NCBI GenBank assembly: GCA_040219515.1
Contig: JAVJSI010000016.1
Span: forward strand, 125,390 to 189,389
DNA: 64,000 bases
Reading direction: 5' to 3'
Source: Acidimicrobiales bacterium
Lineage (GTDB): Bacteria; Actinomycetota; Acidimicrobiia; Acidimicrobiales; Aldehydirespiratoraceae
In this document: positions 26,499 to 28,371 of the stretch, piece after piece
How the letters are laid out: each line of letters begins with the position of its first letter
Numbering within the stretch: position 1 is the first letter of the stretch
Program-made: the position numbers and the translations under genes
Notes under the pieces: model-generated
What the model was told of the DNA's origin: nothing
The model's database searches: none
What the model saw: the letters and a program-made list of their open reading frames with translations, nothing else

Positions 26499-27262
26499 CC
26501 ATCCACGAGACCGTCAACGACGACGGCGTGCTCGAGCTGGTCATGGACAACCCCAAGGTCAACGCGTTGCCGATCGCCGACACCCGGCGCATCGCCGAGG
26601 TGCTCGAGGGCGTCCGTCATCGGCCCGAGATCACGGCCGTCATCCTCACCGCCACCGGCCGGGGGTTCTCGGCCGGCGTCGACATCAAGGAGATGCAGGC
26701 CATGGAGGGCAACGAGGGCATCCTCGGGGTCAACCAGGCGTGCTTTGATGCCTTCCGGGCCGTCTACGAGTGCGCGGTGCCCGTGATCTGCGCGGTCAAC
26801 GACTTCTGCCTGGGCACCGGAATCGGTCTGGCCGGCAGCGCCGACATCGTCGTCGCGGCCGAGGGAGTTCGCTTCGGGCTGCCCGAGATCGACAACGGCG
26901 CGCTCGGGGCGGCCACCCACCTGGGGCGACTCGTGCCCGAGAAGCACCTTCGGTGGATGCTCTACAGCTGCGAGCCGGTCGAGGCGGAGAAGCTCGAGGA
27001 GTGGGGAACCGTTCTTCGGGTGGTGCCGCTCGAAGACCTGATGGACACCGCTCGCGGGGTCGCCCGGGTGATCGCATCGAAGCATCCGGTGGTGATGCGC
27101 GCGGCGAAACGTTCGCTCATCGGTATCGACGACGACCCGAGCCGCAGCTACCGCTACGAGCAGGGGTTCACCTTCGAACTCAACCTCCACGGACTCGGCG
27201 AAGAGGCACGGGCGGCGTTCGTCAAGGGCGAACGAGAGCGCAACGCCGCCGCCGGCGATTAG
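26495..27262 (+). CDS. echA20: EchA20-like crotonase (steroid ring-opening type)
   Basis: A 255-residue crotonase strongly resembling mycobacterial EchA20 (Rv3550). Shared landmarks are GRGFSAGVDIKEMQ, FDAFRAVYECAVPVICAVN, FGLPEIDNGALGAATHL, SRLVP-like GRLVPEKHLR and the C-terminal YRYEQGFTFELNLHGLGEE. EchA20 hydrolytically opens a cyclic 1,3-diketone during cholesterol C/D-ring breakdown. The crotonase fold is certain; the specific role follows from this close similarity and was not tested by alignment. GTG 26495 overlaps the thiolase stop. It is convergent with the anti-sigma gene, overlapping it by 4 bp. Confidence 0.85.
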   Translation: MTIHETVNDDGVLELVMDNPKVNALPIADTRRIAEVLEGVRHRPEITAVILTATGRGFSAGVDIKEMQAMEGNEGILGVNQACFDAFRAVYECAVPVICAVNDFCLGTGIGLAGSADIVVAAEGVRFGLPEIDNGALGAATHLGRLVPEKHLRWMLYSCEPVEAEKLEEWGTVLRVVPLEDLMDTARGVARVIASKHPVVMRAAKRSLIGIDDDPSRSYRYEQGFTFELNLHGLGEEARAAFVKGERERNAAAGD

Positions 27263-27531
27263 TCGCCACGACCGTTGATCTCCGCGCCGAACGCGTGCAG
27301 TCGCTCGATGGTCGCCGCGTCGACGGCGGGCATCTTCGCGGCGAGCGAGGTCTTGATCGCCCGGTAGGTGGTGAGCTCGAGGCCGCAAGCCCGGCACGCG
27401 TCGAGGTGGGCCGCGATCTTCTCGGCGAAGTCGGCGTCGACATCGTCGTCGAGATAGCTCTGCAGGACGCGGCCGACCTCGCGGCAGTCGACCTCGGGCA
27501 GATGGCGGCGGGTCCACCGTCGTCGGATCAC
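27259..27531 (-). CDS. Zinc-binding anti-sigma factor (RsrA/ZAS type)
   Basis: A 90-residue protein with DCREVGRVLQSYLDDDVD followed by AAHLDACRACGLE, giving an early Cys plus H-x3-C-x2-C, the zinc/disulfide centre of RsrA-type redox anti-sigma factors. Such proteins hold their ECF sigma factor until oxidation releases zinc. GTG 27531 overlaps the sigma-factor stop (GTGA), so the pair is translated in step, which is typical of a sigma and its antagonist. It is the natural partner of the gene just upstream. Confidence 0.85.
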   Translation of the reverse strand: MIRRRWTRRHLPEVDCREVGRVLQSYLDDDVDADFAEKIAAHLDACRACGLELTTYRAIKTSLAAKMPAVDAATIERLHAFGAEINGRGD

Positions 27532-28088: not shown

Positions 28089-28132
28089 GTGTGGGGAAAC
28101 TACCAATCGCCGCCGGGGGAGGGGCGGCGCCA

Positions 28133-28158
28133 GGAATGCCTGGTCGCAACGGCGGGTT
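28133..28158 (+). promoter_or_regulatory. Putative ECF-type (GGAAT-N18-GTT) promoter
   Basis: GGAAT at 28133-28137, an 18-nt spacer, then GTT at 28156-28158. This matches the SigR/SigH consensus GGGAAT-N18-GTT except for the first G. The start of transcription would fall near 28166, almost on the ATG of the zinc-finger gene at 28168, so the mRNA would be leaderless. The sigma gene is divergent next door. Confidence 0.5.
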
Positions 28159-28167
28159 CATGCGCGT

Positions 28168-28371
28168 ATGAAGCGGTTCCATCGTGTCCGTTGGGCCTCG
28201 GCTCTCGAAGCCCTGCTGGACGACGAGCTCGACCCCCGTCGACTGGGGCGGGTGCTCGCGCATCTCCAGGACTGTCCCGAGTGCCTGGCCGAGCTCGAGG
28301 CGCTGGTCCGCCTCCGGCAGTCGCTTCGACGTCTGGCCCACACCCGTCGCCCGCTAGCGTCGGTCGAGTGA
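28168..28371 (+). CDS. Small zf-HC2 zinc-finger protein
   Basis: A 67-residue, Arg/Leu-rich protein with [33 protein letters not shown], containing H-x3-C-x2-C as in anti-sigma zinc fingers. It lacks the early extra Cys of the downstream RsrA-like protein and any membrane part. It is head to head with the ECF sigma gene and its stop overlaps the haemoglobin start (GTGA). It could be a second antagonist of the same sigma factor or of another one. Confidence 0.75.

Follow-up and report, generated by a model that had tools for sequence, protein, structure and literature searches.

The window, a 64-kb stretch of DNA on contig C16 of one genome (G000; 4.02 Mb in 19 contigs), contains an enoyl-CoA hydratase gene followed by the genes for an ECF sigma factor and a co-encoded anti-sigma-like protein, both on the minus strand, a divergent unit encoding a second HxxxCxxC protein and a truncated haemoglobin, and then HU (Table 1). 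We refer to the sigma factor adjacent to this second protein as sigma-prime, to its co-encoded partner as RsrA2, to the second HxxxCxxC protein as ZF2, and to the locus comprising sigma-prime, RsrA2, and ZF2 as the cassette. The RsrA2 gene overlaps the stop codon of sigma-prime, and the globin gene overlaps that of ZF2, in each case at GTGA. The anatomy of the locus bears out the initial annotation in its view that one sigma factor has two HxxxCxxC proteins, the second of which heads a divergent unit. The solved chains nearest to the globin are T. fusca haemoglobin (2bmm, E 3e-32) and HbO (1ngk, E 7e-31), a similarity in keeping with truncated haemoglobin group II. Genes were called with a finder of our own making, which breaks down where the G+C content is low, and many of the gene names used below were assigned by inspection.

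Table 1. Features of the sigma-prime/ZF2 locus (positions within the window)
Feature	Position	Strand	Basis
-35 element GGAAT of candidate ZF2 promoter	28133-28137	+	sequence; kept in 13/14 family loci
-10 element GGGTT of candidate ZF2 promoter	28154-28158 (GTT 28156-28158)	+	12/13 family sites GGGTT, 1 GTGTT
ZF2, 67-aa zf-HC2 protein, H5...H32xxxC36xxC39 (HHCC), proposed second anti-sigma	28168-28371	+	Pfam zf-HC2 30.7 bits, cut-off 22.2
Truncated haemoglobin, HbO-like, 132 aa	28368-28766	+	Pfam Bac_globin 105.2 bits
Sigma-prime, ECF sigma factor, 186 aa	27528-28088	-	Pfam Sigma70_r2 and r4_2; TIGR02947 117 bits
RsrA2, zf-HC2 anti-sigma-like, 90 aa, C16...H42xxxC46xxC49 (CHCC)	27259-27531	-	zf-HC2 28.9 bits, cut-off 22.2

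The site upstream of ZF2

The initial annotation had placed a GGAAT-N18-GTT site just 5′ of the ATG at 28168, and this is confirmed in the sequence: GGAAT, 18 bases, GTT, and a further nine bases precede the start codon (28168-28170). Such a spacing suggests that the ZF2 mRNA would be leaderless, with its start site at the ATG itself.

Exact matches to GGAAT-N18-GTT number 41 in the whole genome, both strands included, and many of them lie inside genes, as would be expected if the match before ZF2 were fortuitous. However, the probability of a chance match in one given 60-base leader, calculated from those 41, is only ~2 in 10^4, and the motif turned up in 63 of 280,000 shuffled leaders. (A backward-pattern control gave just 2 matches, but it was an unfair one, because TAAGG is rare in the G000 genome.) More telling is the comparison with relatives. 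A search of 51 family genomes for sigma-prime (E < 1e-70) located its orthologues in 13 of them, at 14 places in all, each of which also has ZF2. In 13 of these 14 loci the site lies within 60 bases 5′ of ZF2, always with N18, and when spacings of 8 to 30 were scanned in all 14 loci none but 18 was found. The first 16 bases of the spacer are poorly conserved across the family sites (mean identity 37%), and the two bases preceding GTT are GG in 12 of the 13 and GT in the other. The one locus without it is that of G021, where ZF2 is interrupted by an in-frame TGA and its promoter has decayed, with no intact site left. We consider a chance origin exceedingly remote and rejected it, given the occurrence in 13/14 loci, with N18 only, against a background of poorly conserved spacers; the comparison supports the ZF2 site as a conserved promoter-like element. 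We also observed a palindrome-like CCAGG-N4-CCTGG that spans the -35 element in the window and was absent from the other family leaders compared.

Which sigma factor would read the site

From its fit to the SigR/SigH consensus, the site had been tentatively ascribed to the adjacent sigma factor. The consensus alone is ambiguous in this respect, because a closer SigR/SigH relative is encoded on another contig, C18, and because other such sites in the genome precede typical SigR targets. With the SigH_actino model (TIGR02947, cut-off 251.55) the C18 sigma scores 243 bits, just below the cut-off, against 117 bits for sigma-prime, and it has a canonical RsrA adjoining, the two forming a separate SigR-RsrA pair (L170; G000:C18:109900-113500). 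Where GGAAT-N18-GTT lies outside genes in G000, it is found, among other places, 5′ of genes for a thioredoxin, cystathionine beta-synthase, a Dps-like ferritin, and an MshA-like glycosyltransferase (the last with an MshA model score below the cut-off) and, by inspection, of trxB, clpB, dnaK, and a rhodanese gene. G027, a genome of the same genus that is without the cassette, retains six of these SigR-type sites. Since these sites persist there, and since the C18 sigma is closer to SigH_actino and adjoins a canonical RsrA, the general GGAAT-N18-GTT regulon is most likely that of the C18 sigma.

It follows that the C18 sigma might read the ZF2 promoter as well, which would make ZF2 and the globin members of the general thiol-stress regulon. 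The promoter elements of ZF2 match the SigR consensus, the same motif precedes the stress genes listed above, and the two sigma factors might share recognition. We nevertheless consider it unlikely that the C18 sigma, rather than sigma-prime, is the reader, and three comparisons argue against it.

The first concerns a disulfide-reductase gene (Pyr_redox_2; the nearest NCBIfam models are FAD oxidoreductase, MerA, and lipoamide dehydrogenase, none above cut-off), which in G000 has a leaderless GGAAT-N18-GGTT site. The gene was matched in 39 of the 51 family genomes, from which 30 loci were taken and 29 leaders were readable; in two cassette-bearing genomes, G018 and G025, the leader could not be read. 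A leaderless GGAAT-N18/19-GGTT site precedes the gene in 10 of 11 genomes with a full cassette (eight with N18, two with N19) and in G019, where a partial sigma lies at a contig end. The site was found in none of the 17 readable genomes without the cassette, although 13 of these hold a C18-type, SigR-like sigma. The site therefore goes with the cassette and not with the C18-type sigma. The cassette follows genus lines, so that the 29 genomes are not independent events, and the most telling cases are G027, which belongs to the same genus, has no cassette, and reads GGTC at the corresponding position, and G021, the only full-cassette genome without the disulfide-reductase site and also the one with the broken ZF2 and decayed ZF2 promoter.

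The second comparison concerns the leader of sigma-prime itself. Class-wide, sigma-prime occurs in 37 of 395 genomes, at 40 places; leaving out that of the window, 21 of 39 places have GGAAT-N17..19-GTT just 5′ of sigma-prime, and in 19 of them an in-frame start follows 5-14 bases after GTT. A ZF2-like gene is present at 8 of the 39 places (seven divergent, one downstream), six of them with a leaderless site. A disulfide reductase with a leaderless site lies near sigma-prime at three loci (L274, L276, and L295), and CcdA does likewise at L277. In a phylum sample, sigma-prime was found in 27 of 396 genomes; among 14 further loci outside the class, seven have an own-side site with an in-frame start, and at two (L338 and L340) there is a divergent ZF2 with its own site. 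By inspection, leaderless sites near sigma-prime also precede thioredoxin genes and a glutaredoxin-like gene; those at L271 and L295, a glutaredoxin-like and a thioredoxin-like gene with GGAAT-N18/19-GGGTT, are further likely targets.

In the window's own family, an own-side GGAAT-N17..19-GTT before sigma-prime was found at none of the 14 loci. Just 5′ of sigma-prime (window 28089-28112) there is a block resembling CTAGCAATC (TTGCTAG on the sigma strand), and it recurs in most family leaders; with the GGAAT site absent there, this block may be sigma-prime's own promoter.

The third comparison is that of the -10 region. GGGTT ends 12 of the 13 ZF2 sites and 14 of the 21 own-side sites, but none of 18 SigR-type sites (own-side versus SigR-type, Fisher p = 8e-6), the latter having been hand-picked before recognizable stress genes, 12 from G000 and six from G027. 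The set excludes L001 and L027, which precede other genes, L016, which belongs to the disulfide reductase considered above, L014 and L029, both of which do end in GGGTT, and any site that is intragenic or has no clear gene behind it; L020, the site of trxB, was kept, though the gene finder had called the stretch coding. The signature is an imperfect one. It ends just one of ten disulfide-reductase sites, and the 12 cassette genomes searched contain 52 matches to GGAAT-N16-GGGTT, 12 of them at ZF2 and 40 elsewhere. In the single-contig genome G029, the ZF2 site is the sole match.

On the distribution of the disulfide-reductase and own-side sites, we rejected the C18 SigR relative as the sole reader in our main reading. 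Because the disulfide-reductase site tracks the cassette, we favor sigma-prime as the sigma factor that would read the ZF2 site. What stands of the original ascription is that this class of site tracks sigma-prime by comparison, and, by that comparison only, sigma-prime appears to have GGAAT-N18-GTT target promoters as SigR and SigH do.

History of the ZF2 unit

Seven of the 14 family loci have CcdA directly behind ZF2, and seven have the globin there. The order ZF2-CcdA-TlpA-globin-HU occurs at four loci (L050, L232, L233, and L235), L234 has a ZF2-CcdA-TlpA unit without the globin, and at L033, L236, and L237 the contig ends after CcdA or within TlpA. The globin follows ZF2 in the window, G026, G028 (after a gap of ~340 bases), G029, G020, G021, and the second locus of G034. 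In a relative without the cassette (L052), the 3′ part of tlpA is retained between the hydratase and globin genes. CcdA of the kind found in the ZF2 unit was not found in G000, G026, G028, G029, or G027.

The ancestral operon was probably ZF2-CcdA-TlpA-globin, from which G000 lost ccdA-tlpA. In the light of the tlpA remnant in L052 and the longer operons of relatives, the globin is best read as an old member of the unit whose place directly behind ZF2 results from that loss. We therefore rejected the globin as the defining partner of ZF2, CcdA being its neighbor in half of the family loci. The globin had been taken to point to NO, oxygen, or thiol stress as the signal. As it is probably the last survivor of ZF2-CcdA-TlpA-globin, thiol-disulfide stress is favored and NO or oxygen less so.

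Three further observations bear on the history of these genes. At positions 2290-2946 of L052, a locus from which the cassette has disappeared, an ORF with a macrodomain-like start continues into the 3′ portion of tlpA. G034 has two full cassettes (G034:C16 and G034:C79), both with a site of their own; one includes CcdA-TlpA-globin, the other only the globin. Lastly, at L337 (G020:C36:11658-12485), a CcdA with an in-frame TGA lies behind GGAAT-N16-GGGTT and a short ORF starting MGRR, and this appears to be what is left of a second ZF2-CcdA unit after decay.

ZF2 as a candidate second anti-sigma factor

The Cys, His, Cys, Cys ligands of RsrA2 are invariant in 13/13 family members, so that sigma-prime, like SigR and SigH, has a CHCC anti-sigma-like protein as its neighbor. 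In ZF2, His5, His32, Cys36, and Cys39 are invariant in all 13 intact family members, and none has a Cys at the first place. ZF2 thus carries His where RsrA2 has Cys as the presumed fourth zinc ligand (HHCC versus CHCC). Ten ZF2-like proteins from outside the family have the N-terminal His in every case and HxxxCxxC in nine, bringing the N-terminal His to 23/23. In its HxxxCxxC motif and its zf-HC2 score, ZF2 conforms to a ZAS domain, although His5 and His32 are 27 residues apart in the window's family, against a published distance of 23-26 residues between the fourth ligand and the motif (PMC4960319). One ZF2-like protein (L269) has lost its CxxC part (HLGHYLLC), and is possibly zinc-free, while its gene keeps a leaderless GGAAT-N18-GGGTT.

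Both proteins score below the cut-off of the RsrA model (TIGR03988, 62.5; RsrA2 30.9 bits, ZF2 28.9 bits). A model built on RsrA2 outscores the canonical RsrA model for 22 of 23 ZF2 proteins, the exception being L287, with L279 nearly equal, and a helix-III pattern, [LIVM][KRQ]x[SAH][LIV], is likewise common to 22 of the 23. The AF2 models are of modest confidence: that of RsrA2 has four helices (pLDDT 61.9, a weak model), and that of the window's ZF2 has three and lacks helix 4 (pLDDT 74), one short of the four helices of a ZAS domain. Longer forms of ZF2 have a fourth segment like that of RsrA2 (L037, L038, L039, L041, and L042; L270, L273, and L277). Foldseek and VIA searches with the ZF2 model gave no match. 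In a tree of ZF2, RsrA2, and canonical RsrA, RsrA2 (95/99) and canonical RsrA (99/98) each stand apart, but ZF2 is not resolved as one clade, with long branches and unsettled bootstrap values.

These features bear on whether ZF2 acts on sigma-prime at all. It might be under sigma-prime and yet serve as a zinc or redox accessory of the CcdA-TlpA relay, or as a zinc store, that has kept an anti-sigma-like fold; that seven of the 14 family loci have ZF2 at the head of a CcdA-TlpA operon, that the window's ZF2 has no helix 4, and that L269 has no CxxC part would all fit. We hold this to be doubtful, given that ZF2 is kept in the seven loci where CcdA-TlpA is gone and the globin is next, that it lies beside the sigma in 14/14, that its helix-III pattern is kept and the RsrA2 model preferred (22/23 each), and that the longer forms hold a helix-4 segment resembling that of RsrA2. 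Alternatively, ZF2 could be the anti-sigma factor of another sigma, such as the C18 SigR, through which sigma-prime would act on the general thiol response by cross-talk. ZF2 is without helix 4, the part to which specificity is ascribed, so that its partner could differ, and the L287 protein does score better on canonical RsrA; the preference of 22 of the 23 proteins for the RsrA2 model, and the adjacency of sigma-prime to ZF2 in every one of the 14 family loci, make this quite improbable.

Our preferred reading is that sigma-prime transcribes the ZF2-globin unit and that ZF2 is an HHCC anti-sigma factor that limits the response despite the presence of oxidant; we give this joint explanation a probability of roughly 0.55. 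At rest, sigma-prime would be held by its co-encoded CHCC anti-sigma factor, RsrA2. Once RsrA2 is oxidized, with Cys16 pairing to Cys46 or Cys49 as the RsrA precedent suggests, sigma-prime would be set free and would then make the disulfide reductase and, from the divergent GGAAT-N18-GGGTT promoter, a leaderless ZF2-globin mRNA; in relatives, it would make CcdA, a TlpA-like thioredoxin, and the globin too. Because ZF2 has His in place of the redox cysteine, it could re-bind sigma-prime while the oxidant persists, so that negative feedback would curb or terminate the response.

The elements of this scheme differ in strength. Comparison among genomes supports the promoter, its tie to sigma-prime, the HHCC/CHCC difference, and the likeness of ZF2 to RsrA2, so that the wiring from sigma-prime to ZF2 is well supported. 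Braking by ZF2 is possible, by analogy; its binding to sigma-prime, its redox behavior, the sign and timing of the loop, and the leaderless start are what we infer. ZAS proteins are CHCC or HHCC according to their N-terminal ligand, and it is the CHCC type that senses (PMC4960319). When Cys11 of RsrA is changed to His, zinc is lost and another disulfide forms upon oxidation, yet the sigma factor is not released (PMC4960319). In contrast, RslA, which is HHCC, is reported to be redox-labile, with loss of zinc and weakening on oxidation (PMC2877774). Since the RsrA Cys11His protein stays on its sigma but the HHCC RslA responds to oxidant, an "oxidation-blind" ZF2 is the likelier prediction and not a certain one. 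Helix 4 is also of concern, as RsrA helix-4 double mutants bind sigma >100-fold more weakly (PMC4960319), and most of the predicted sigma contacts and the specificity have been assigned to that helix (PMC7406223). The absence of helix 4 from the window's ZF2, the lability of RslA, the His5 distance of 27, and the preference of L287 for canonical RsrA all count against our explanation, as do the imperfect GGGTT signature, the modest confidence of the AF2 models, and the lack of a Foldseek match for ZF2.

No GGAAT site precedes sigma-prime itself in the window's family, so that only negative feedback would operate there. A bolder proposal, which we put forward tentatively, is that this actinobacterial ECF lineage uses two zinc anti-sigma factors of opposite chemistry, a CHCC sensor co-produced with the sigma and an oxidation-blind HHCC limiter made by the sigma itself, and that the window's family lost the self-activating site (0/14 versus 19/39) but retained that of the limiter, turning a mixed loop into a purely negative, self-terminating one. 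If true, a change in one zinc ligand separates sensing, by the cysteine copy, from shut-off, by the histidine copy, despite oxidant. The RsrA Cys11His result predicts how such a protein would behave, and here nature seems to have built one and kept it beside its sigma. The cassette-less genomes without the disulfide-reductase site provide a natural experiment through which a regulon becomes readable from sequence in uncultured bacteria.

Among known systems, SigR-RsrA of Streptomyces and SigH-RshA of Mycobacterium are alike in having an ECF sigma factor with a co-encoded CHCC zinc anti-sigma factor, GGAAT-N18-GTT promoters, and thiol-redox targets. Sigma-prime differs in that it belongs to a lineage of its own, with a closer SigR relative also encoded in the genome; its proposed target unit includes a further zinc protein, of the HHCC type; and in the window's family the site before its own gene has been lost. 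ChrR of Rhodobacter shares the HHCC type of ZAS zinc site (PMC4960319, PMC2877774). It is, however, the sole anti-sigma factor of its sigma and senses through a cupin domain, whereas ZF2 consists of the zinc domain alone and would be a target of sigma-prime. SigL-RslA of M. tuberculosis likewise has an HHCC anti-sigma factor, with a CPEC motif, but RslA is membrane-bound, co-encoded with its sigma, and the only anti-sigma factor there. Genes under SigL include those for an extracytoplasmic thioredoxin (mpt53) and a CcdA-like protein, and the SigL promoter consensus is unlike that of sigma-prime. Similar to the proposed loop, too, are the SigR feedback loops of actinomycetes, in which a thiol-stress sigma is under negative feedback by its own products; work by Kim from 2009 reportedly deals with an unstable sigma-R isoform and SigR feedback in these bacteria. 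That loop runs through proteolysis and re-reduction of RsrA and is not known to involve a second anti-sigma factor. In a literature search, with most subscription papers outside its reach, we found no account of a CHCC sensor and a sigma-dependent HHCC paralogue beside one sigma factor. The parts (ECF sigma factors, ZAS proteins, and SigR-like promoters) are known in kind, and their combination is new to the literature searched.
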